Below are positions 832 to 19,002 of a stretch of 26,568 nucleotides of DNA, piece by piece. This DNA is from a virus, in IMG/VR virus record IMGVR_UViG_3300043172_000518, positions 1-26,568 of that record; one strand, written 5' to 3'. The position numbers and the translations under genes are program-made. Numbering within the stretch: position 1 is the first letter of the stretch; every line of letters begins with the position of its first letter. Under the pieces are notes generated by a model. The model did no database searches. It was not told where the DNA came from and was given only the letters and a program-made list of their open reading frames with translations.

Positions 832-2171
832 TGGAAACGCAAGACCCTCCGTATGATCTGGATGCAGAGGCCTCCGTGCTGGGTGGGATGATGCTGGACG
901 AGGCGGCAATCGACTTGGTCGAGCCGATCATTCCACGAGGAGAGGCCGGGCGCTTCTACCGCATGGATCACCAGCTCATCTACGCCGCGATGGTGAACAT
1001 GCGGTTGAATGACGAGCGGATCGACGAGATCACCTTGACCGACTATCTCCGATCGAGGGGTGAGCTGGAGCAGGTCGGCGGCAAGGACTACCTGATCGAC
1101 CTTTACAGCGCGGTCCCCAGTATCGCGAACGTGGAATACTACGCTCGCATTGTTAGGGACAAGGGGCGCCTGCGCGATCTGATACAGCTCGGCCACCGCG
1201 TTTACAATGCCGGATACGTTTATGATGCCGACCCCGGCAAGCTGGCTGGTGACACTGAGGAGGCGCTAATGCGGATTCAAGGCGCCGCCGAGACATCGGC
1301 GCCTGTGACCGCACGGAAGGTTGGAGAGGTCGTGGTCAGGAAGATCCTCGCGGGTGAGATGCCGACCGGCCTCAAGACCGGCCTGGATGTTCTCGACAAG
1401 CGGATGATAGGCCTGATGGCGGGGGAGGTTATCGTCCTTGCGTCCCGTCCGGGCGTCGGGAAGACGGCACTCGCCGTGCAGACCGCCGAGTATGTTGCGG
1501 AGTCGCAGGCGGCGGTGCTGTATTTTTCGATGGAGATGACGAAGGAGGCGCTCGTGCGGCGGATCGCGGCCCAACGGCTGATGATTCCTGGTGGGCCCTT
1601 GCGTCAGCCGAAGTACCTGAGCAACTTCGACAAGAGCAAGCTGAAAGAGGCGAGATTCAGTGACCGGCTGTTTTTGTCGGACGCGACAGGCTTGAACACG
1701 TCGGACATCAGAGCCAGGGCCCGACGTATGAAGATGAAGCAGCCAGACCTGGGCCTGATCGTGATCGACTACCTGGGGTTGATACACGATGAGGGAGAAC
1801 AACAGAATCGGAATGTCGCGGTCGCCAACATCACCCGAGCGATCAAAGCGATGGCCTTGGAATTGAGCATCCCCGTCCTGTTGCTTCACAGCTTGAGTCG
1901 CAGCAGCCAGCATGAGAACCGGATGCCGGATCTGCACGACCTGAGAGACAGCGGCCAGATCGAGCACGACGCCGATATTGTCTGGTTCCTGCATCCGGCC
2001 AAGAAGTATGACGGCAAGAGTGCGATCCCCGAGACGGTCGAGATCTATCTGTTGATCCGCAAGCACCGGGAGGGGTCGGTCGGAAACGTGCGGTTGAAGT
2101 TCCGAAGGGCGATGACGAAGTTTATCGATCCCGATCGGCAAGAGCAGCCGACCCTTGAGGGTGTGGCGTAG
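831..2171 (+). CDS. dnaB: Replicative DNA helicase, DnaB family
   Basis: This 446-residue protein has the full DnaB layout. The N-terminal DnaB domain (about residues 5-100, LDAEASVLGGMML and the Y-A-A-M segment) is followed by a linker and a RecA-like ATPase domain. Walker A is ASRPGVGKT at residues 204-212, with Lys211 contacting phosphate. Walker B is LIVIDY, with Asp313. A late S-G-Q-I-E-H-D-A-D segment matches DnaB motif 4. The start is set at ATG 831, which overlaps the upstream stop by one base; a GTG at 813 in the same frame is less likely because it lies further inside the preceding gene. It unwinds DNA at the phage fork, presumably loaded by the preceding protein. The length is normal for the family. 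Confidence 0.95.
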   Translation: METQDPPYDLDAEASVLGGMMLDEAAIDLVEPIIPRGEAGRFYRMDHQLIYAAMVNMRLNDERIDEITLTDYLRSRGELEQVGGKDYLIDLYSAVPSIANVEYYARIVRDKGRLRDLIQLGHRVYNAGYVYDADPGKLAGDTEEALMRIQGAAETSAPVTARKVGEVVVRKILAGEMPTGLKTGLDVLDKRMIGLMAGEVIVLASRPGVGKTALAVQTAEYVAESQAAVLYFSMEMTKEALVRRIAAQRLMIPGGPLRQPKYLSNFDKSKLKEARFSDRLFLSDATGLNTSDIRARARRMKMKQPDLGLIVIDYLGLIHDEGEQQNRNVAVANITRAIKAMALELSIPVLLLHSLSRSSQHENRMPDLHDLRDSGQIEHDADIVWFLHPAKKYDGKSAIPETVEIYLLIRKHREGSVGNVRLKFRRAMTKFIDPDRQEQPTLEGVA

Positions 2172-2175
2172 GTGC

Positions 2176-2736
2176 ATGATGACTGAGGAGCAACGAGGAA
2201 ACTTTTGGGATATGCGGGAGCGGTGGCTCTCCTGCCCTGGCTACGAGAGTCTGTATCAGGTCTCGAATCACGGTCGCGTGCGCCGACACAAGGAGGCGAC
2301 CGGGCCCTCTACATACCCAGGCCGGATGAAGAAACTTGGTTCGCGGCCTGCGGACGGGGTTCCGGTTGTTACCCTGCACAACGGGCGAGGGTCCAGCGAG
2401 CGATTGCCGGTCGCGCCGTTGATCTGCCGAGCGTTTCACGGCGAGGCGCCGGAAGGCAAGACGCATGTTGTGCATGTGGACGGCAGGAGCAAGAACAACC
2501 AACAGGGCAATCTGCGGTGGGGGACGGCCTCTGAGATTGTCGAGGCGACTTGGGCTCGTGGCAAAAAAAAGGCGGTGGCGAGGATCTTAGAGCCGCGTGA
2601 GGTCGACGCGATTCGCGAGCAATGGGGCGAGGAGTCGGCCGCGTCACTCGGAGAGCGCTACGGTGTGTCCGCTCAAACGGTGCGTGATATCTGGTCCCGC
2701 CGTACCCACGCGGAAGACGATCGGGAGATTGGGTGA
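2176..2736 (+). CDS. NUMOD4 / HNH endonuclease with C-terminal helix-turn-helix
   Basis: The 186-residue product has three recognisable parts. A NUMOD4 motif lies near residues 17-35 (W-L-S-C-P-G-Y-E-S-L-Y-Q-V-S-N-H-G-R-V). An HNH nuclease core lies near residues 97-117 (H97-V-V-H100-V-D-G, then K-N-N, then N-L-R-W). A helix-turn-helix follows at about 155-175 (L-G-E-R-Y-G-V-S-A-Q-T-V). This is the standard architecture of free-standing phage homing-type endonucleases. The start is ATG 2176 or 2179, 4 to 7 bases after the helicase stop; a GTG at 2155 would lie inside dnaB. It probably nicks or cuts DNA, perhaps to promote its own spread; HNH proteins can also serve phage replication or packaging. 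The stop overlaps the next ATG. Confidence 0.85.
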   Translation: MMTEEQRGNFWDMRERWLSCPGYESLYQVSNHGRVRRHKEATGPSTYPGRMKKLGSRPADGVPVVTLHNGRGSSERLPVAPLICRAFHGEAPEGKTHVVHVDGRSKNNQQGNLRWGTASEIVEATWARGKKKAVARILEPREVDAIREQWGEESAASLGERYGVSAQTVRDIWSRRTHAEDDREIG

Positions 2737-6197: not shown

Positions 6198-6608
6198 ATG
6201 CCAAGGGGAAAGGCCGACCTGATCTTCCCAGTGCCGGAGACGCCGAAGATCCGCTTCACGGCGCTCGACCATGATCTCCAGGCGACCCATCCCTACTACT
6301 TTGTCATCGGCACCCAGATTAGCTACGCCAAGTCGATGGAGCACGCACAGGGGTTGAGGGACCGCATGATGCTCACCTGTAACCGAGCTTATCGTTGGGT
6401 GGATATGGTTCCTGCCGGGGCCCCTCGCGTGTCGCCGACCAAGGTGCGGGCGCTTCGGAACCTCACGGGGGAGCAGCTCGGCCAGATTACAGACATGCTT
6501 GAGGCTGGGAACAACGTCGCCTACATCGGCCGGAAGTTCGGTGTGCCGCCGAATATCGTAGCGGCGCTGCGGCATGGGTTGGTTTATGCCCCGCTCGCCG
6601 ACGATTAG
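6198..6608 (+). CDS. Hypothetical protein with C-terminal helix-turn-helix-like region, 136 aa
   Basis: ATG 6198 lies one base after the previous stop, with GAGGGG upstream. The N-terminal half is unknown. The C-terminal third (about residues 89-129) reads L-T-G-E-Q-L-G-Q-I, then I-G-R-K-F-G-V-P-P-N-I-V-A-A-L-R-H-G, which fits a helix-turn-helix of the type that recognises DNA in small phage regulators. It is the last gene of the rightward early cluster. Its stop TAG overlaps the TAA stop of the leftward recombinase gene by two bases, with no room for a separate terminator. Confidence 0.7.
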   Translation: MPRGKADLIFPVPETPKIRFTALDHDLQATHPYYFVIGTQISYAKSMEHAQGLRDRMMLTCNRAYRWVDMVPAGAPRVSPTKVRALRNLTGEQLGQITDMLEAGNNVAYIGRKFGVPPNIVAALRHGLVYAPLADD

Positions 6609-7348
6609 CCCGATCTGCAATGCCGGTCATAGGAAAACCCAGGCCGTGTTTTGAGGATGCGGGAGATGGTGCCGTGGTGCCAGGAGCGTCCACGGCACTT
6701 GTGGCCTTCCTTGGTGAGCTTGCGGCCGATCGCCCGGTAGCCGAGGCCCTCGTTCCGCAGGGCAACCATCCGTTCGATGACGGCCTGTTCTTGCTCGTCA
6801 GGCTTCATGCCGGTTGGGCGCCCTGAGCCGTTCGGTGGGGTCTCGGGGTCATCCTCGAAGCCGTAGGGGAGGCTGTCGCTCATCCTGCGGCCGTTCGCCT
6901 GCATCGAGAGCATCGCGTCTCGCGTCCGTTCTGCGGTCTGCTCTCGCTCCAAGGTGGCGATCGCAGCCATGATCGTGAAGAAGCAGCGGCCGACCGGCGT
7001 GGATGTGTCGATGTGGGTGTCGAGCATCGCGAGACTGGCACCGGCCTTTTCGAGCCGTTCGCAGATCTCCAGGGCGTCGGCCGTGTTGCGGGCGAGCCTG
7101 GACAGCGAATAGACGACCAGTGTGGCCTTGGAGTGGCAGGCGACCTCCAGGGCCCGGTGCAGGTTTTCACGAAACATCGTGGCGCCGCTGATGCCCTCAT
7201 CCTGGTAGGTGTTCAGGATCACATAGTCGTGGGCGGAGCAGTAAGAAGCACACCGAAGGATCTGGGTCTCGTTCGACGCGCATTTGGACATCGCGCCCTT
7301 CGGTCGAGGGCTGAAACGGGCGTAGATTACGGCTTGTTGTGTGGTCAT
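6605..7348 (-). CDS. Serine recombinase (resolvase/invertase type, compact)
   Basis: I set the start at ATG 7348 with GGAG upstream (product begins MTTQQ); the frame extends to 7423 without support. The 247-residue protein starts with the catalytic motif Y-A-R-F-S (Ser13). It continues with the resolvase-fold signatures D-E-G-I-S-G and Y-S-L-S-R-L-A-R-N, whose arginines contact the scissile phosphate, and E-R-E-Q-T-A-E-R-T. A short part of the Recombinase (PF07508-like) region follows (Y-G-F, then G-L-G-Y-R-A-I-G-R-K-L-T), ending at I-S-R-I-L-K-T-R-P. The zinc-ribbon and coiled-coil C-terminus of large phage serine integrases is absent. It could be the integrase or a resolvase/invertase. Confidence 0.85.
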   Translation of the reverse strand: MTTQQAVIYARFSPRPKGAMSKCASNETQILRCASYCSAHDYVILNTYQDEGISGATMFRENLHRALEVACHSKATLVVYSLSRLARNTADALEICERLEKAGASLAMLDTHIDTSTPVGRCFFTIMAAIATLEREQTAERTRDAMLSMQANGRRMSDSLPYGFEDDPETPPNGSGRPTGMKPDEQEQAVIERMVALRNEGLGYRAIGRKLTKEGHKCRGRSWHHGTISRILKTRPGFSYDRHCRSG

Positions 7349-7374
7349 TCTGCATCTCCGATGATCTCTTTGGC

Positions 7375-7644
7375 CTAGTCTCTCCGAAAAATAGCGATAG
7401 CGCGGGCCAGTCGTTGGCGCCATAGCCTCCGACGTTCGCTTCGCTTTTCTGCCTTGGATATCCTCCTGAACGCCGCCTTGGTTTCAACCGGACATACAAT
7501 CTGGAACGGCTGTGAGCGACCATCGACAGGCGCGTGGAATATCGTTCTCGTTTGCACCCGCCGCAAGGACTCCTTGATATGGTGCTCGTCCACGGTTTGC
7601 TTGTCGGCGTGCCAAACATCGATCACTGTGACGGTCTTCTTCAT
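7375..7644 (-). CDS. Small basic hypothetical protein, 89 aa
   Basis: ATG 7644 overlaps the stop of the transglycosylase gene (ATGA) and follows AAAGG. The product begins M-K-K-T-V-T-V-I-D-V-W-H and has a strongly basic C-terminus (K-A-E-K-R-S-E-R-R-R-L-W-R-Q-R). It sits between the transglycosylase and the recombinase in the leftward operon. I recognise no family. The basic tail might bind nucleic acid or the membrane surface. Confidence 0.6.
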   Translation of the reverse strand: MKKTVTVIDVWHADKQTVDEHHIKESLRRVQTRTIFHAPVDGRSQPFQIVCPVETKAAFRRISKAEKRSERRRLWRQRLARAIAIFRRD

Positions 7645-8138: not shown

Positions 8139-8455
8139 GGGCTGGGTGCCTCCGCTTTGGCGATGGCGGCGCGGAGCCTGCTACGGACGTTCATCATCGC
8201 CTGATGTCCTTTGACCGGAACAGCGGGCATATTGACGAGGGCGTACTCACACGCCGCGAGCAGGGCCTCGTGGCTGTTGACGGCAAGGATAATGAGGTCC
8301 AGGTCGGCGTCAATCTTGTCCCGCCGTGCGTGGCACTTCTGGCAGGCACAGACGGATGCGACTTCTGTGCCGTCCGCTGCCTGGATGATCATCACGTTGG
8401 TCTGATTGGCCTTCGGCGCTGCTTCCCACGGCAGCGGACTGTGTTTCTCGCTCAT
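8135..8455 (-). CDS. Phage hypothetical protein of the HSPLPW type, 106 aa
   Basis: The product begins S-E-K-H-S-P-L-P-W, has I-I-Q-A-A-D-G-T-E-V-A, C-A-C-Q-K-C-H, and L-I-I-L-A-V-N-S-H-E-A-L-L-A-A-C-E-Y-A-L. This combination is a common small phage protein of unknown function (an H-[ST]-P-L-P-W start and an A-V-N-x-H-x-x-L-L core). The start ATG at 8455 is next to the upstream gene's stop. The C-terminus is helical and basic. It is translationally coupled to the transglycosylase gene by an ATGA overlap. Confidence 0.8.
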   Translation of the reverse strand: MSEKHSPLPWEAAPKANQTNVMIIQAADGTEVASVCACQKCHARRDKIDADLDLIILAVNSHEALLAACEYALVNMPAVPVKGHQAMMNVRSRLRAAIAKAEAPSP

Positions 8456-8886
8456 CAGTGTGTCTCCTTTGCTGGCTTCATCACGATGCGGGCCCTTTCC
8501 CAGCAGTCGCTACCGTAGATTCTCGATGCCATCTCGACGAGTTGCCGCAGCTCGCGACCTGCCTTGAGTTGTTCCTTGGCGAGCGTTGCCATCGCACTAC
8601 TGAAAGGAGACCTCTCAAACGCCGTCGTGATTCGCTCCAGGGCGATCGCGAACGCCACCATCTTCCAGTAGGCGATTGCGTGGTGTGCGCAGGCGTAGTC
8701 ACCGCCCATTGCATCACGGTTTTTAGGAATGTAATGTGTCTCAGGGTCGATCACTTCGGCATACGCCAGCTCCCATGCCCGATCCGTCGAGACGTGCCGC
8801 TTGAGCTGCTCACGCCTCGCCACAAAGGCCTCCCAGTATCCCTGTGCGTGAGCCCGCCGCTTCATCGTGGATTTGCTTATCGCCAT
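8455..8886 (-). CDS. Hypothetical protein sharing N-terminal module with the putative small terminase, 143 aa
   Basis: The first 40 or so residues (K-S-T-M-K-R-R-A-H, then W-E-A-F-V-A-R-R-E-Q-L-K-R-H, then D-R-A-W-E-L-A) are almost identical to the protein encoded on the other strand at 12751, and the DNA is nearly identical too. After that the sequences diverge. The C-terminal part here has H-H-A-I-A-Y-W-K-M-V-A-F-A and a helical charged stretch. The shared region looks like a small DNA-binding module. No function can be assigned beyond that. Confidence 0.7.
   Translation of the reverse strand: MAISKSTMKRRAHAQGYWEAFVARREQLKRHVSTDRAWELAYAEVIDPETHYIPKNRDAMGGDYACAHHAIAYWKMVAFAIALERITTAFERSPFSSAMATLAKEQLKAGRELRQLVEMASRIYGSDCWERARIVMKPAKETH
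8765..8886 (-). repeat. Long inverted repeat, copy 1 (partner at 12751-12878)
   Basis: The 122 bases here are the reverse complement of 12751-12878 apart from scattered differences and a 6-base insertion in the partner. Bases 8770-8836 match 12807-12873 without a single mismatch over 67 bases. Both copies encode the N-terminus of the respective protein. Confidence 0.9.
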
Positions 8887-11650: not shown

Positions 11651-11689
11651 GAGAAATCTTAGCCGACGGCCAAAAAAGGTGTGATCGGA

Positions 11690-11734
11690 CGTGGACGGGT
11701 TTGGACGAGTCTTGACCGGATCGTGGACGGGTTT
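11690..11734. repeat. Direct repeat CGTGGACGGGTTT, two copies
   Basis: The 13-base unit occurs at 11690-11702 and 11722-11734, 32 bases apart, just upstream of the 33-bp tandem repeats. The similar spacing may be coincidental or may point to a common binding protein. Confidence 0.6.
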
Positions 11735-11771
11735 GACCCGATAGTCCAGTTCAGTTCTGTTCTGTTAAGCG

Positions 11772-11870
11772 GCCATGAGCCGGGCGGGTCATGGCCATGA
11801 GAAAGCCATGAGCCGGCGGGGTCATGGCCATGAGAAAGCCATGAGCCGGCGGGGTCATGGCCATGAGAAA
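11772..11870. repeat. Three tandem 33-bp repeats, each with an inverted repeat
   Basis: Copies lie at 11772-11804, 11805-11837 and 11838-11870, followed by a partial GCCA. Copies 2 and 3 are identical and copy 1 differs by a small change in its GC-rich centre. Each unit contains GCCATGA, about 10 GC-rich bases, then TCATGGC, an inverted repeat. No spacers separate them, so this is not a CRISPR array. The arrangement is what one expects of iterons or a multi-site operator. Confidence 0.85.
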
Positions 11871-12025
11871 GCCAAATCGGTATCATTCCTGATAGTGGCC
11901 GCTCCTCTGTGACGATCTCAGGCGTCCTGGTGGCCGATCGGGCTCAGGCCGGCGCTCCTGGGCGATCCTGAGAGGCCTGCGGGCGGAGTCGGTGCTATCG
12001 CGCGTGACAGTGGTATGCAGTAGAA

Positions 12026-12750: not shown

Positions 12751-12878
12751 ATGGCGATACCGCAGAGCAAGTCGACGATGAAGCGGAGGGCACACGAGCT
12801 GGGGTGCTGGGAGGCCTTTGTGGCGAGGCGTGAGCAGCTCAAGCGGCACGTCTCGACGGATCGGGCATGGGAGTTGGC
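12751..12878 (+). repeat. Long inverted repeat, copy 2 (partner at 8765-8886)
   Basis: This is the partner copy of the inverted repeat on the leftward operon. The exact 67-base match is 12807-12873. It includes a 6-base in-frame insertion near its start relative to the partner. Confidence 0.9.
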
Positions 12879-13314
12879 CGCGACCGATGTGATCGAGCAT
12901 CACGAGAAACGGCGGATTGCCGAGTCGGGAAATCTGCCGTTTGAGGATCTGAAAACGCCGTCCGATCTACTCGTGCCGAGAGCTGCGTTCAAAGCGACTC
13001 GCGGCGAGTCCAGAGAGGTTGTCGAGTGGGTTGCGCAGAACATCGCGGTTGCAGATGCGACTCCGCGAGATTGCCCGTGTCCGGAGGCCTGGGCCCTGCT
13101 CCTGTGGGTGAGGGATGCCGACGTGCCGGAGAACCAGCAGCGATTCTGGACGATCATCTTTCCCAAGCTGATGCCAACGAGGTCGGCACTCGGGGATGGA
13201 GGGGGGTTCGACGATGACGGGCGGCGCCTTGACAGATTACTCGACGAAGTCGATAAGGTGTGCGAGCAGCTCGAAGAAAGGAAGAAGGCGGAGCAGGCGG
13301 AGTTGTCGGCGTGA
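12751..13314 (+). CDS. Putative terminase small subunit (by position)
   Basis: This 187-residue protein is the first gene of the late module, two genes before the large terminase, which is the usual place of a small terminase. The N-terminal 40 residues (K-S-T-M-K-R-R-A-H, W-E-A-F-V-A-R-R-E-Q-L-K-R-H, D-R-A-W-E-L-A) form a probable DNA-binding helical module shared with the leftward gene at 8455. The centre has A-L-L-L-W-V-R-D-A-D-V-P-E-N-Q-Q-R-F-W. The C-terminus is a charged helix (R-L-D-R-L-L-D-E-V-D-K-V-C-E-Q-L-E-E-R-K-K). No small-terminase signature is conclusive, so the call rests on context. Small terminases recognise the packaging site, and the GCGCATA cluster lies just upstream. Confidence 0.5.
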   Translation: MAIPQSKSTMKRRAHELGCWEAFVARREQLKRHVSTDRAWELAATDVIEHHEKRRIAESGNLPFEDLKTPSDLLVPRAAFKATRGESREVVEWVAQNIAVADATPRDCPCPEAWALLLWVRDADVPENQQRFWTIIFPKLMPTRSALGDGGGFDDDGRRLDRLLDEVDKVCEQLEERKKAEQAELSA

Positions 13315-13565: not shown

Positions 13566-15437
13566 ATGAACAGCCTGGCGCTTGATCGATCGCCGTACTA
13601 CTCGCGGTATTATGCTCGCCTGAAAGATTGGCGGGCGAATCTCAAGTTTCGGCGGAAGCTGAACGCGCTCGGGTACACCGACGAAGACAACGCGGCAGAG
13701 CTGCGGATGATGTGCGGCCGTGATCTGTTGTTCTGGCTCAACGCCTTCTCATTCATCTTCGAGCCGCGCAAGAGCACCTATCTGCCGTTCCTGACCTATC
13801 CGTTTCAGGACGATGCCTTTACTACGCTCGATCACTCGATTGAGATCGGCATCGATGTCGGGATCGAAAAGAGTCGCGACATGGGCGGCTCGTGGGGTGT
13901 GATCGCAGTCTATGTCTGGCGGTGGCTGTTCAAGGCGAATCAGTCGTTTCTACTCGTGTCTCGAAACCAGGATCTTGTCGATAAGGCCGGGAATCCCGAC
14001 TCGCTGTTCTGGAAGGTCGATAAGCTCCTCCTTGGATTGCCCGCTTGGATGAAGCCGCGTAATCCCGATCGAACGCTGCTGCATCTTGGGAATCCCGAGA
14101 ACGAGAGCGTGTTGGATGGCACGTCGACCACGGGCGATGTGGGGCGTGGAGGCCGTCGCCTGGGGATTCTCCTCGACGAGTTTGCCGCATTCAAGTTCGA
14201 GGATGGCTACGCCGTGTTCAGGGCGACTCAGGCGGCGACCGATTGCCGGTGTTTCTTGTCGACACCGAAGGGTGGGGCGGGGCCCTGCTACGACGTGATG
14301 CACCCGGAGTCCGGAACCGAGATCGTCATCATCACGTTGCACTGGAGCAAGCACCCCGAAAAGAATCCCGGCCTGTACCGGGCAACACCGGAGAAGATCG
14401 AGTTCCTCGATCCAGGCTATCGATATCCAGACGACTACCAATTCATTCGAGACGATAAACTGCGGTCTCCGTGGTATGACCGCGAGGATCGTCGACCGGG
14501 CTCGACCCCGCAGCTCATGGCCCAGGAGCAGGATATCGAGTATCATGGTGCGGCGTTCCCGTTCTTCGACCTGACTCGACTGGATCAAATCATCAAACGC
14601 TGTCGCCCGCCGATCGCGATCGGGAGCCTCCACTACGATCGAATCGCTATCGAGCCGATCGAGTTCGAGGAGGAGCCTGGGGGAAAACTCTCGCTATGGG
14701 TGAATCTCGGGGCAGATGGGAAGCCGCCCGTGGATCGCCGGTACATCATCGGGGTTGATATCTCCTACGGGACGGGGGCCAGCAACTCGGCGGCGGTTGT
14801 GTACGACCGGGCGACGCGGGAAAAGGCGGCTGAGTTCATCACGCCGCACCTGACGCCGGAGAAGTTCGCCGATGGCGTGATCGCCCTTGCCAAGTGGTTT
14901 GTGGGGGCCAACGAGCAGGAGGGCGGCGCCAAGATGATCTGGGAGGCGCAAGGGCCGGGCCGGGCGTTCGAGGGCGCTGTGAAGGATGCGGGCTATCGGC
15001 ACATCTACTACCGGGATGCTGCGGCCAACGAAGCGCGTATGTTTCGGCGCCGCAGTAGGATACCGGGTTTTTGGACCACGGCCGATACGATGAGGATGCT
15101 CCTGAGTGCCTACCGCAAGGCGCTGGACGCGGAGACGATCATCAATCTGAGCGAGACGGCGGTGAACGAGTGCAAGGAGTTCGTCCACGACAAAAACGGC
15201 CAGATTGCCCATTTCGCGTCATTGAACACGGATGACCCGACGGCGGCTCGGGCGGCTCACGGCGATGTTGTGATCGCCGACGCTTTGGCAAATAAAGTGC
15301 TTGCATTATCTCCGATGTTGCCGCAGACTGCCGAGGCGTCAGAGGACCGGGAGCCGCCAGAGGTTCCCGAGTGCTCCTTCGCCGGGCGGCGGAAACGCCG
15401 CGAGGACGCGAACTGTGAGCTGATCTGGATTGACTAG
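13566..15437 (+). CDS. terL: Terminase large subunit (TerL)
   Basis: The 623-residue protein carries both terminase activities. The ATPase domain has a Walker A variant, K-S-R-D-M-G-G-S-W at residues 102-110, of the K-x-R-x-M-G-x-S-W type, and a Walker B at L-G-I-L-L-D-E-F, with Asp204 and Glu205. The C-terminal RNase H-like nuclease domain shows Asp398 (G-V-D-I-S-Y-G), Glu460 (W-E-A-Q-G-P-G) and Asp567 or Asp572 (H-G-D-V-V-I-A-D-A), which would bind the metal ions. It packages DNA into the head and cuts it. ATG 13566 lies three bases after the preceding stop. The exact packaging type cannot be told from this sequence. Confidence 0.95.
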   Translation: MNSLALDRSPYYSRYYARLKDWRANLKFRRKLNALGYTDEDNAAELRMMCGRDLLFWLNAFSFIFEPRKSTYLPFLTYPFQDDAFTTLDHSIEIGIDVGIEKSRDMGGSWGVIAVYVWRWLFKANQSFLLVSRNQDLVDKAGNPDSLFWKVDKLLLGLPAWMKPRNPDRTLLHLGNPENESVLDGTSTTGDVGRGGRRLGILLDEFAAFKFEDGYAVFRATQAATDCRCFLSTPKGGAGPCYDVMHPESGTEIVIITLHWSKHPEKNPGLYRATPEKIEFLDPGYRYPDDYQFIRDDKLRSPWYDREDRRPGSTPQLMAQEQDIEYHGAAFPFFDLTRLDQIIKRCRPPIAIGSLHYDRIAIEPIEFEEEPGGKLSLWVNLGADGKPPVDRRYIIGVDISYGTGASNSAAVVYDRATREKAAEFITPHLTPEKFADGVIALAKWFVGANEQEGGAKMIWEAQGPGRAFEGAVKDAGYRHIYYRDAAANEARMFRRRSRIPGFWTTADTMRMLLSAYRKALDAETIINLSETAVNECKEFVHDKNGQIAHFASLNTDDPTAARAAHGDVVIADALANKVLALSPMLPQTAEASEDREPPEVPECSFAGRRKRREDANCELIWID

Positions 15438-15617: not shown

Positions 15618-15660
15618 AGACGGCAGTATGGTGCCATACCACCGTACTGCCGTCTTTTTT
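15618..15660 (+). terminator. Rho-independent terminator
   Basis: The 11-bp perfect stem AGACGGCAGTA (15618-15628) / TACTGCCGTCT (15645-15655), with an inner TGGT/ACCA pairing, is followed by T6 (15655-15660). It lies between the terminase block and the Tad2-domain gene, so the terminase genes and the following virion genes may be separate transcripts. Confidence 0.85.
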
Positions 15661-15697
15661 CTTGAGTATGGAAGAACAGAGACAGGAGACAGGAACC

Positions 15698-16168
15698 ATG
15701 CAACGCTGGAAATGTCACAAAGAAGTGGGCGGCGAGAAGATTGTGTCGATCAACGTCGACGGCCCCGACGGAAGCGCACTCCTGCACCTCGCCGACGGCA
15801 CCAAGCAGGATGTCAGCGCCGAGTACATGCGGAAACGCGAGCCGCAAGTGGGCGGGTACTACATCAAATACGAGGACGGCTACAAATCGTTCAGTCCGGC
15901 AGAGCCGTTCGAGGGCGGGTACACCAAGATTCCGGCCGGCGGGTCCAGCTTCGGCATCGGTAAGGCCATCCTCGTGCTGCGTGATGGCGGCAAGGTCTCG
16001 CGGCACGGTTGGAACGGCCCAGGCCAGTATCTCAAGCTCCAGGTTCCGGACGCACACAGCGCGAACACCCTGCCGTATGTCTATATCATCACCATCCAGG
16101 GCCATCGCGTGCCGTGGATGGCAAGCCAGACAGACTTGCTGGCTTGCGATTGGTTCGTTGCAAAGTAG
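15698..16168 (+). CDS. Protein with C-terminal Tad2 (DUF2829, anti-Thoeris) domain
   Basis: The start is ATG 15698 behind AGGAG/CAGGA; an in-frame ATG at 15668 would add ten residues. The C-terminal half (about residues 86-156) matches the Tad2 / DUF2829 layout: I-G-K-A-I-L-V-L-R-D-G-G-K-V-S-R-H-G-W-N-G, a loop, then L-P-Y-V-Y-I, then V-P-W-M-A-S-Q-T-D-L-L-A-x-D-W. Tad2 proteins sequester the ADP-ribose-type signal made by bacterial Thoeris defence, so this may be an anti-defence protein. The N-terminal 80 residues are a separate domain (L-L-H-L-A-D-G, then G-G-Y-Y-I-K-Y-E-D-G-Y-K-S-F-S-P) also known from phage proteins. The fusion of the two is the notable point. The activity is inferred from domain identity only. 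Confidence 0.8.
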   Translation: MQRWKCHKEVGGEKIVSINVDGPDGSALLHLADGTKQDVSAEYMRKREPQVGGYYIKYEDGYKSFSPAEPFEGGYTKIPAGGSSFGIGKAILVLRDGGKVSRHGWNGPGQYLKLQVPDAHSANTLPYVYIITIQGHRVPWMASQTDLLACDWFVAK

Positions 16169-16238: not shown

Positions 16239-16676
16239 ATGAGATCTTTTGCAGTTCTAATGTTGTGCCTGCTCGTCGCAGGCTGCTCGGTGATCGACAC
16301 GGGGCCGAAGACGGCGCAGATCGCCGTGGAGGGCGCTGCGGCCACTGCCAAGGTGTTGCTAGCACAATACAAGCCGGAGACGATGACGGCGGGTGCGAAG
16401 GCGAATATCAACGATCCGCGATACCGCGTCAGGGTGTTTGTCGGCGCTGGAACTCTGTGCGATATGTTCATCAGCCTGGAGGGCGCCGACGCGGGCTTCA
16501 ACATTCAGGGGGCGGGCGGCGCCAGCGAGATCTCGGCCGAACTCAAGGCCGAACTATCGGACATCATCGGAAACCAAGCCATGAGCACCGAGGAGCGCTG
16601 GAACGCCGTTCTTGACGCTCTGACCAAGCACTTCATCGCGTCTCCGCCGGATGCTGGCTCCGGGACTGGAGATTAG
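16239..16676 (+). CDS. Putative lipoprotein, 145 aa
   Basis: The product begins with a signal sequence (M-R-S-F-A-V-L-M-L-C-L-L) ending in a lipobox V-A-G-C, with Cys16 as the predicted lipidated residue. The mature part has A-A-A-T-A-K-V-L-L-A-Q-Y, a G-A-G-G-A-S-E-I run and a helical, acidic C-terminal half, ending in a Gly/Ser-rich tail. The gene comes after a 70-base gap from the Tad2-domain gene, with GGGAG upstream. It would sit in the outer or cytoplasmic membrane. A lysis or superinfection role is possible, but no family is recognised. Confidence 0.7.
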   Translation: MRSFAVLMLCLLVAGCSVIDTGPKTAQIAVEGAAATAKVLLAQYKPETMTAGAKANINDPRYRVRVFVGAGTLCDMFISLEGADAGFNIQGAGGASEISAELKAELSDIIGNQAMSTEERWNAVLDALTKHFIASPPDAGSGTGD

Positions 16677-16681
16677 TCGTT

Positions 16682-17182
16682 ATGCCAACAGCGCAGGCAT
16701 CGGTTGCGTTGTTCCTGTCGCGGCGGTTGCGGTCGCGGGCTTCGCTCGTGATCGCGGCCGTCGTCATAGGGTGTGGCGGCGGGTGTGGCGTTGAGGCGAA
16801 GGTGGCCGATCGTATCGCCGTCGAAGACGTGAGCCTTGTTGACAAGATCGAGGCGGCGAACACGCGGCTTGCCTTGCGGCTGGAAGACAAGATCGACAGC
16901 ACGACCGAGCAGGCGATCGACGCGACCAACAAGGTCGGCAGAGATCTTGACCAAGTGATTACAACCTCGTCGAAGACGACTATCGGCCTGACGGGTCCGT
17001 GGATCGTCGCTCTGCTCGTGGGGCTGGCCTTGGTCGGCGCTGCGTGCTTTGTGGTTGCCGTGTGGCTGATTGTTCGGTGGTTGCGGTGTCAGTTCCAGAA
17101 GCACGGCTACACGCCCGAGAATTGGAAAAAGAAGATCGTCGAGTTTCAGGGCAGCACGGTTTCTCGATCTATGCGAGACTAG
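16682..17182 (+). CDS. Putative membrane protein, 166 aa
   Basis: ATG 16682 lies five bases after the lipoprotein stop. The N-terminal region is basic and hydrophobic and ends in a V-I-G-C lipobox-like site at Cys31, so an N-terminal signal or lipid anchor is possible. The central part is a charged helix (E-D-K-I-D-S-T-T-E-Q-A). A strongly hydrophobic segment at about residues 106-132 (W-I-V-A-L-L-V-G-L-A-L) is a clear transmembrane helix with a basic tail after it. The pairing with the lipoprotein just upstream suggests a joint envelope function. The function is unknown. Confidence 0.65.
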   Translation: MPTAQASVALFLSRRLRSRASLVIAAVVIGCGGGCGVEAKVADRIAVEDVSLVDKIEAANTRLALRLEDKIDSTTEQAIDATNKVGRDLDQVITTSSKTTIGLTGPWIVALLVGLALVGAACFVVAVWLIVRWLRCQFQKHGYTPENWKKKIVEFQGSTVSRSMRD

Positions 17183-17184
17183 CG

Positions 17185-19002
17185 ATGATGGTCAAACGCA
17201 GCGATGAAACGATCAATCCGCTCAACGCGGACGACATGACTGATCTGCAAGATGCGGTGAACCGCTCGCGGATAGCCCTGTCGTACGCGCGCACCAATCG
17301 CAGGAAGATGATCGAGCAGTATGTCGGCTCGCACTACGGTCGCGAAGGCTCATCCGAAAAAGTCCCGGTGCCGCTGCTCGAACAGATGATTGCGATTTTC
17401 ATGCGGTCGCTCGTCGCCAACGCACCCAAGGTGTTGATTCACACGCCACACCTGGAACTCAAGCCCACCGCCGAAGTCTTCACCCAAGTATCCAACGCTC
17501 TCATTCGTCAAATCGAACTCGGCGAGACATTTCGGCTTTGGGCGCTCGACGCGCTATTCGATTTCGGGATCGTGAAGGTCGGCCGGGCCGTGGGGCCCAC
17601 GGTCACAACGATGGGGTTCGAGCACAGGATAACGAATCCCTATTGCGATCGGGTGAGCCTCGATGACTGGGTGCATGACACCGGCTCAGCGCGGTGGGAG
17701 AAATGTACCTTTATGGGCAACCTCGTGCGGGTGTCGATGGAGGAAATGCGTAACTTTGGCGACCTGTACGACAAGGCGGGGCTCGATCAGCTCCAGGTTG
17801 TCGAGGATCGACAGACCGACGAGACAGGCACGCAGCGATCGGAGCAGATCGCCTTGGGCAGCGAGGGATGCGTGGACTGGAAGGATCAAACTCTCGTTTG
17901 GGAGCTGTACCTCCCAATGGAAAATCTATTGCTGACCCTGCCCGCCAGCCGGGGCGGTCAGAACTCGCTCGATTGGACAAAGCCGCTTCTTGTGCGCGAG
18001 TACGAGGGGCCTGACGAGGGGCCGTTTCACAGGCTGTACTTCGGCGACGTTCCCGACAACATCATGCCGCTGGCGCCGGTTCACACACTGATCGACCTCC
18101 ACATGCTCGCCAACAATCTATTCCGCAAACTGGACGATCAAGCAAGGCGGCAAAAAGAGTTCGGTGTTGGTCAAAAGGGTGGAGAGACCGACGCTGTGGC
18201 CATCATGGATGTCAAAGATGCGGCGGTCATAATGGTTGAAGATCCCGCCGCCTTCACTACGGCGAGGATCGGCGGGCCCGATCAGGTGAATCTCGCGTTC
18301 TTCATGGCGGTGACTCAGCTTTTCTCGAAGCACGCCGGGAACCTGGACGCTCTCGGGGGGTTGCAGCCCACGGCCGAGACACTCGGCCAAGAGGAACTCA
18401 TGGCATCCGGGGCCTCGAAGAAACTCTCCGGGATGCGGGCGAGGATGCTCAGCGCGACCGAGAAGGTTGTGCGGGCGCTGAACTGGTATCTGTGGGACGA
18501 GCCCTTCGGCCTGCGGCCCTATGAATTGAAAACTCCCGATAGCGGCATGACGATCAGTGGGCTCTGGAGGCCCTCCGATCGAATGGGCGATTTCATGCAA
18601 TACAACTTTGACATCGATCAATACTCGATGGTCGATATCACGCCGGCCCAGCGGTTCGCGCAGCTCATGCAGTTTGTCCAGAACGTGCTTATGCCCGCGT
18701 TGCCGATGTTGCAGGCAGAGGGCGGGCGCCTGAACTTCAAGGCGCTTCTGAAACTGGCGGAGCGGCAGGGGGGGCTCCACGAGATCAGCGAGCTGGTCGA
18801 GTGGGCGGGCGGGCCTCCGATCGACGCGCTCCAGCCGTTGCAGGATATTCAGCAGCCGGCGAAGCCGGCGGTAACGACAAGGCGGTACGAGAGGATCAAC
18901 AAGCCCGGCGCAAGCCAGCAGGGAAACGAGGCGACAATGATGCGGAGCCTGTTGGGTCAGAATCCGCAGGGGGCCGAGATGGCTGGTCTTGCGAGGAGCT
19001 GA
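17185..19002 (+). CDS. Portal protein
   Basis: I place the start at ATG 17185 (or 17188), three bases after the preceding stop. The 605-residue product falls in the size range of phage portal proteins and lies between the terminase and scaffold/capsid genes, as is usual. An N-terminal R-N-x-Y segment is not clear, but G-S-H-Y-G-R-E-G, L-F-D-F-G-I-V-K-V-G and L-A-N-N-L-F-R-K-L-D-D-Q-A fit the helical body of portals. It also contains S-K-K-L-S-G-M-R-A-R-M-L-S-A-T-E, seen in P22-type portals as the wing-like helix. It would form the dodecameric DNA-entry ring of the procapsid. The call is from position, length and overall pattern. Confidence 0.75.
   Translation: MMVKRSDETINPLNADDMTDLQDAVNRSRIALSYARTNRRKMIEQYVGSHYGREGSSEKVPVPLLEQMIAIFMRSLVANAPKVLIHTPHLELKPTAEVFTQVSNALIRQIELGETFRLWALDALFDFGIVKVGRAVGPTVTTMGFEHRITNPYCDRVSLDDWVHDTGSARWEKCTFMGNLVRVSMEEMRNFGDLYDKAGLDQLQVVEDRQTDETGTQRSEQIALGSEGCVDWKDQTLVWELYLPMENLLLTLPASRGGQNSLDWTKPLLVREYEGPDEGPFHRLYFGDVPDNIMPLAPVHTLIDLHMLANNLFRKLDDQARRQKEFGVGQKGGETDAVAIMDVKDAAVIMVEDPAAFTTARIGGPDQVNLAFFMAVTQLFSKHAGNLDALGGLQPTAETLGQEELMASGASKKLSGMRARMLSATEKVVRALNWYLWDEPFGLRPYELKTPDSGMTISGLWRPSDRMGDFMQYNFDIDQYSMVDITPAQRFAQLMQFVQNVLMPALPMLQAEGGRLNFKALLKLAERQGGLHEISELVEWAGGPPIDALQPLQDIQQPAKPAVTTRRYERINKPGASQQGNEATMMRSLLGQNPQGAEMAGLARS

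Follow-up and report, generated by a model that had tools for sequence, protein, structure and literature searches.

What does a Tad2-like protein with a second domain in front of it do within a block of packaging and head genes? The question is raised by the open reading frame at 15698-16168 of a virus record from IMG/VR, which is a linear fragment with a length of 26,568 bases (the whole of it is here called the window). An earlier note on this DNA had described the protein as a fusion of a Tad2 domain with another phage domain. It had proposed that the gene could act early in infection only from a promoter of its own, and that otherwise its product enters with the virion or acts late.

Gene order around the two-domain gene

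The fusion of a Tad2-like domain to a second phage domain within the packaging and head block, as the earlier note read it, held up, and the features of the locus are collected in Table 1. The strong terminator said to lie just upstream of the gene is also supported by calculation, with 16 pairs followed by a T-run, -36 kcal/mol, and a z score of -9.45. About 43 bases separate the end of this hairpin from the ATG, and a search of the plus strand in this region gave no sigma-70-like promoter. The placement between terminase and portal genes stands for the terminase. The portal is assigned by its position and by a weak match of its L007 homologue to the SU10 portal (E = 0.0087), and two small genes intervene. 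The product of one is a putative lipoprotein with an LLVAGCS lipobox and that of the other a putative membrane protein, and a family search with them gave no significant match. Searches against PADLOC and NCBIfam gave no match.

Table 1. Features of the two-domain locus (positions in the window)
Feature	Position	Strand	Basis or remark
Large terminase subunit, upstream neighbour	13566..15437	+	phrog_2, E = 7e-16; 39-43% identity to TerL of L179 and L007
Strong intrinsic-terminator-like hairpin in the gap between terminase gene and two-domain gene	15618..15655	+	Calculation
Shine-Dalgarno-like AGGAGA, 8 nt 5' of the ATG	15684..15689	+	Direct sequence reading
Two-domain gene, Dec-type OB plus compact Tad2-like, 156 aa	15698..16168	+	ORF intact
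N-terminal OB domain, homologous to phage L Dec, residues 1-79	15698..15934	+	
Tad2-like domain (PF11195), compact, without the long beta2-beta3 insertion, residues 87-154	15956..16159	+	
Two small genes between Tad2 gene and portal-like gene	16239-16676, 16682-17182	+	
Portal-like protein, downstream past the two small ORFs	17068..19002	+	Position; L007 homologue weakly matches SU10 portal

A distant relative, L179 (TerL 39%, portal 37%, and MCP 29% identical), has the order terL, Tad2, portal. Its gene encodes only the Tad2 domain (86 aa) and overlaps the end of terL, which indicates that divergent relatives have the slot between terminase and portal in common but not the OB domain. In other contigs (L003, L131, L157, and L148), Tad2 genes were also seen near terminase genes. 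Scans with TerL and portal gave no relatives among viral contigs, and a search of phage records with the MCP gave no match.

Elsewhere in the window, the proteins encoded in opposite orientation at 8455-8886 (minus strand) and 12751-13314 (plus strand) share about 37 nearly identical N-terminal residues (STMKRRAH...WEAFVARREQLKRHVSTDRAWELA), and the latter is a candidate small terminase gene with a homologue upstream of TerL in L179. There is a short tandem repeat at about 11659-11886, where a minus-strand frame reads repeated WLSHGHDPAGS units. Based on sequence pattern, 6605-7423 (minus strand) encodes a serine recombinase-like protein. A NUMOD4/HNH homing-type endonuclease is encoded at 2155-2736 (plus strand).

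The two domains

The Tad2/DUF2829 pattern that the earlier note recognized in the C-terminal half was confirmed by profile search. Residues 87-154 match PF11195 with 70.5 bits (cut-off of 25; E = 1.8e-19), and W105-N-G, W140-M-A-S-Q-T-D, and W152 are found exactly where they had been placed. A PDB sequence search with this domain gave SptTad2, ModTad2, and SPO1 Tad2 as the best matches. We modelled the full-length protein as a monomer with AlphaFold2, based on a 51-row alignment. The model (pLDDT 93.6, pTM 0.65) shows two well-formed domains but leaves their placement relative to each other uncertain. Its residues 83-156 superimpose on SPO1 Tad2 (8sme) with a Z score of 12.9 and an rmsd of 1.7 over 74 aligned residues, and comparison with hisADPR-bound ModTad2 gave a Z score of 12.6. 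The domain thus resembles SPO1 Tad2, ModTad2 (from a Myroides prophage), HgmTad2/AcrIIA7, and SptTad2 in family (PF11195), in fold (Z scores of 11.4-12.9), and in the signature segments.

The gcADPR pocket of Tad2 is lined by the beta1-beta2 loop, the beta3-beta4 loop, strand beta4, the beta4-alpha3 loop, and helix alpha3 (review PMC12043709). In our model, these segments are found at about residues 103-110 (W105-N-G), 132-136, 137-139, 140-143, and 144-148 (W140-x-x-S-Q-T-D). The motifs WNG and W-x-A-S-Q-T-D are invariant throughout the compact Tad2 subfamily, and W105-N-G, W140, S143-Q-T-D, and W152 are all present here. Because WNG and W..SQTD map to pocket-lining segments, the most conserved residues of the family sit at the expected pocket, and the model suggests that the ligand pocket is likely intact. 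A feature that counts against a sponge is that P0001 reads SANT where the near-invariant motif reads SKMT.

The domain is different from SPO1 Tad2 between beta2 and beta3, where it is about 13 residues shorter. The link between these strands is 11 residues long in the model, and 70 residues align with 83 of SPO1 Tad2. As the cyclic-dinucleotide site of Tad2 uses a beta2-beta5 insertion (PMC12043709), the part that bears this site is largely missing; this insertion, which marks the HgmTad2 subtype and not the whole Tad2 family, was not found here in its full form. In the solved Tad2 proteins, which have lengths of about 88-104 aa, the beta2-beta3 region is longer and includes the alpha2 helix, which has a dimerisation role in SPO1 Tad2. 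Since the compact form is without alpha2 and the longer region, it may form a different pocket-building tetramer, which also counts against a sponge.

Compared with the solved Tad2 proteins, there is also an extra OB domain of 80 residues in front. The earlier note had ascribed a conserved pattern of its own to this extension, and PHROG families 11049 and 872 indeed match it; a Pfam search of the N-terminal domain gave no model. When modelled alone, it forms an OB-like beta barrel (pLDDT 94.6). Dec of phage L (6E3C) was the top solved match in four tests: a profile-based search against PDB sequences (E = 0.003; runner-up, 0.91), hhalign (probability of 95%, P = 3e-8), Foldseek (E = 3.1e-4, 30% identity; runner-up, 0.04), and VIA-align (Z score of 8.0 over 77 residues; the runner-up, a ribosomal protein, had 6.9). 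In a shuffle control, Dec scored 21.0 bits, compared to 11.1 at most among 20,000 shuffles. Each of these results is modest alone, and we conclude from their combination that the OB domain is homologous to Dec, with 27-30% identity over about 77 residues. Matches to P68HR, EFP-OB, TMEM210, and CPAP were below the cut-off or weak and were treated as noise. The genome of ES18, whose head decoration protein is gp8, gave no match when scanned with the OB profile, and an OB alignment with 9 sequences proved too divergent for scanning.

The OB domain is the capsid-binding part of Dec, and its contacts are K30, Y31, and Y49 (site 1) and Y71 and E73 (site 2) (PMC6449081). In our protein all five differ (K30 to N19, Y31 to V20, Y49 to D38, Y71 to D60, and E73 to Y62). 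The C-terminal beta-helix tail through which Dec forms trimers is absent, and the Tad2 domain stands in its place, directly after the OB domain. Judged by these contact residues, Dec homology does not imply Dec function. The residues that are conserved in the OB domain are K8, H7, Y54, Y58, Y62, S64, and S66.

Recurrence of the fusion and its neighbours

Databases already contain both the Tad2 domain and the two-domain architecture. The family phrog_872 spans both domains, and its members N4 gp49, SopranoGao gp55, and SJ46 J46_0048 have the identical architecture over their full length; we found no characterised member of this family. Two-domain proteins are present in Klebsiella phage SopranoGao, in Salmonella phage SJ46 and its relatives, in Escherichia phages N4 and Louie, where the N-terminal domain is shorter and more divergent, and in IMG/VR contigs L089, L142, L151, L154, and L168. 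There are also 275 plasmid records with a match, 210 of them at a coverage of at least 80%. This rules out a fusion unique to one phage. Nearly all of these plasmids are non-mobilizable and come from Escherichia, Klebsiella, and Salmonella, and the top matches are about 108 kb in size. Their size, mobility, and relation to SJ46 suggest phage-plasmids of the types represented by P1 and SSU5. In the Klebsiella and Escherichia phage-plasmids, the protein is annotated as 'DUF2829 domain-containing protein' and has the same architecture (pCP102, 45% identity over 100%), and many homologues carry the annotation 'anti-CRISPR protein'. The phrog_872 copies that we examined differ from the present one in that they mostly lie outside packaging and head operons (in phage-plasmids, in the vicinity of regulator genes in SopranoGao, and in N4) and in that the insertion within their Tad2 domain is often longer. 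In the two plasmids whose gene neighbours were examined, these are DNA ligase, PhoH, glutaredoxin, and integrase genes and not head genes. We found no paper on the fusion or on the relation between the N-terminal domain and Dec, which, given partial coverage of the literature, argues only weakly for novelty. In view of the label 'capsid decoration protein' on two Pseudomonas phage homologues, the resemblance to Dec may already have been noticed by others.

The OB domain also occurs without Tad2. It stands alone in many phages, and a profile scan of genome contigs yielded five loci in which it is either unfused or joined to a different partner. In Caulobacter phage JessA it is fused to Acb2 (PF24729, E = 4.5e-17), a hairpin sponge of the Acb2/Tad1 type whose ligand-binding part comes from a different Pfam family than Tad2. 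In L028:3977-4471 and L105:1060-1548, the partner is crAss001_48 (PF21825), an uncharacterised phage domain that, by association with the OB domain, may be another anti-defence part. The Tad2-like domain has other partners as well. L127:4191-5216 encodes, in one continuous frame, a family 2 glycosyltransferase (PF00535) with a Tad2-like domain at its C terminus. In L158:4788-5213 a cysteine-containing extension (KCKKCGG...) precedes the Tad2-like domain; it has a zinc-ribbon look, is perhaps Lar-like, and gave no Pfam match.

Hairpin genes adjoin compact Tad2 genes too. Twelve of the 48 contigs with a compact Tad2 gene carry an Acb2/Tad1 hairpin above the cut-off, and in half of these (6/12) the two are on the same strand and at most 350 bp apart. 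For the OB domain, 5 of 44 contigs have a hairpin gene, one of them below the cut-off, and in 4 of the 5 the genes are on the same strand within 600 bp. For both pairs, the P value for proximity is at the floor of 200,000 trials under uniform placement, a generous null since small accessory genes cluster, and the two distance limits were chosen after the data were seen. In Mycobacterium phage MalagasyRose, the order is Tad2 (gp4), Acb2/Tad1 hairpin (gp5), terS, terL, portal. The gp4-gp5 region (L011:707-1509) consists of an unannotated Tad2-like gene followed by the hairpin gene (PF24729, E = 2.4e-22) and looks like a two-sponge cassette. Domain identity, fold, signature segments, OB homology, recurrent fusion, sponge adjacency, and gene position are thus established by computation.

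A possible role late in infection

From these results we infer the ligand, the target system, the timing, and the anti-defence activity of the protein, which is probably a soluble sponge, made late and carrying an accessory OB module, that captures an ADP-ribose signal produced by TIR enzymes. The compact Tad2 domain would bind and hide an ADP-ribose-type messenger (gcADPR or a relative, e.g., His-ADPR) that a host TIR protein makes, and with the messenger sequestered, the death effector would stay off. The protein would be produced late, together with the head genes, when capsid- or portal-sensing TIR systems fire. Thoeris cyclases bind major capsid proteins, which act as their trigger (PMC12578639), and SpbK, a TIR protein, is activated by a portal protein (PMC12847820). 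As both triggers are late products, late expression would be no handicap, and expression with the packaging genes would fit this published sensing. The idea that the gene must act early, from its own promoter, is weakened by these late triggers. Nothing supports entry with the virion: the ten N4 virion proteins that PMC6027278 lists do not include N4 gp49, a protein with this architecture, and by this analogy virion delivery is disfavoured. The Dec-type OB domain, an accessory module common to other sponges, could provide a second ligand site, oligomerisation, or docking.

OB folds often bind nucleic acids or sugars. It is therefore conceivable, although we consider it rather unlikely, that the OB domain itself binds a nucleotide or oligonucleotide signal and widens the range of messengers that are captured. 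The conservation of the seven OB residues named above and the repeated occurrence of the domain fused to or beside Tad2 and Acb2 are in line with this. However, the conserved residues may be structural, Dec, the nearest solved relative, binds capsid, and there is no member with a known ligand.

The likelihood is lower still that the OB domain docks on assembling capsids or on the portal and places the Tad2 pocket where capsid-sensing TIR proteins signal. Such a tether would agree with the homology to the capsid-binding domain of Dec, with the location of the gene in the head block, with the 'capsid decoration protein' annotations, with the sensing of capsid by Thoeris, and with the gene order in phages L and Dewey, where dec and a stand-alone OB gene, respectively, have lysis genes on one side and terS on the other. 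On the other hand, all five Dec contacts are changed and the trimer-forming tail is absent, copies of the architecture lie mostly outside head operons, the same slot in L179 holds a Tad2 without OB domain, and gp49 is missing from the N4 virion list. A more general form, in which the OB domain is a docking module on both Tad2 and Acb2 sponges that holds them at assembling capsids, portals, or other viral structures, where TIR enzymes sensing capsid or portal would produce their signal, for local rather than bulk capture, must be regarded as improbable. Least probable is a non-TIR target, such as Cas9, against which AcrIIA7 was reportedly first described, or a CBASS cyclic dinucleotide: HgmTad2 was deposited as AcrIIA7 and solved with cADPR and cGG, and many homologues bear the anti-CRISPR label, but the insertion with the cyclic-dinucleotide site is largely missing from our protein, whereas HgmTad2 has 104 aa.

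With these results, a common unnamed phage domain, which has no Pfam model and occurs alone, fused to Tad2 or Acb2, and beside sponge genes, gains an identity, and this identity provides a handle for finding more proteins that counter host defences. It also allows experiments on the question of whether phages place sponges at those structures that set off TIR immunity.
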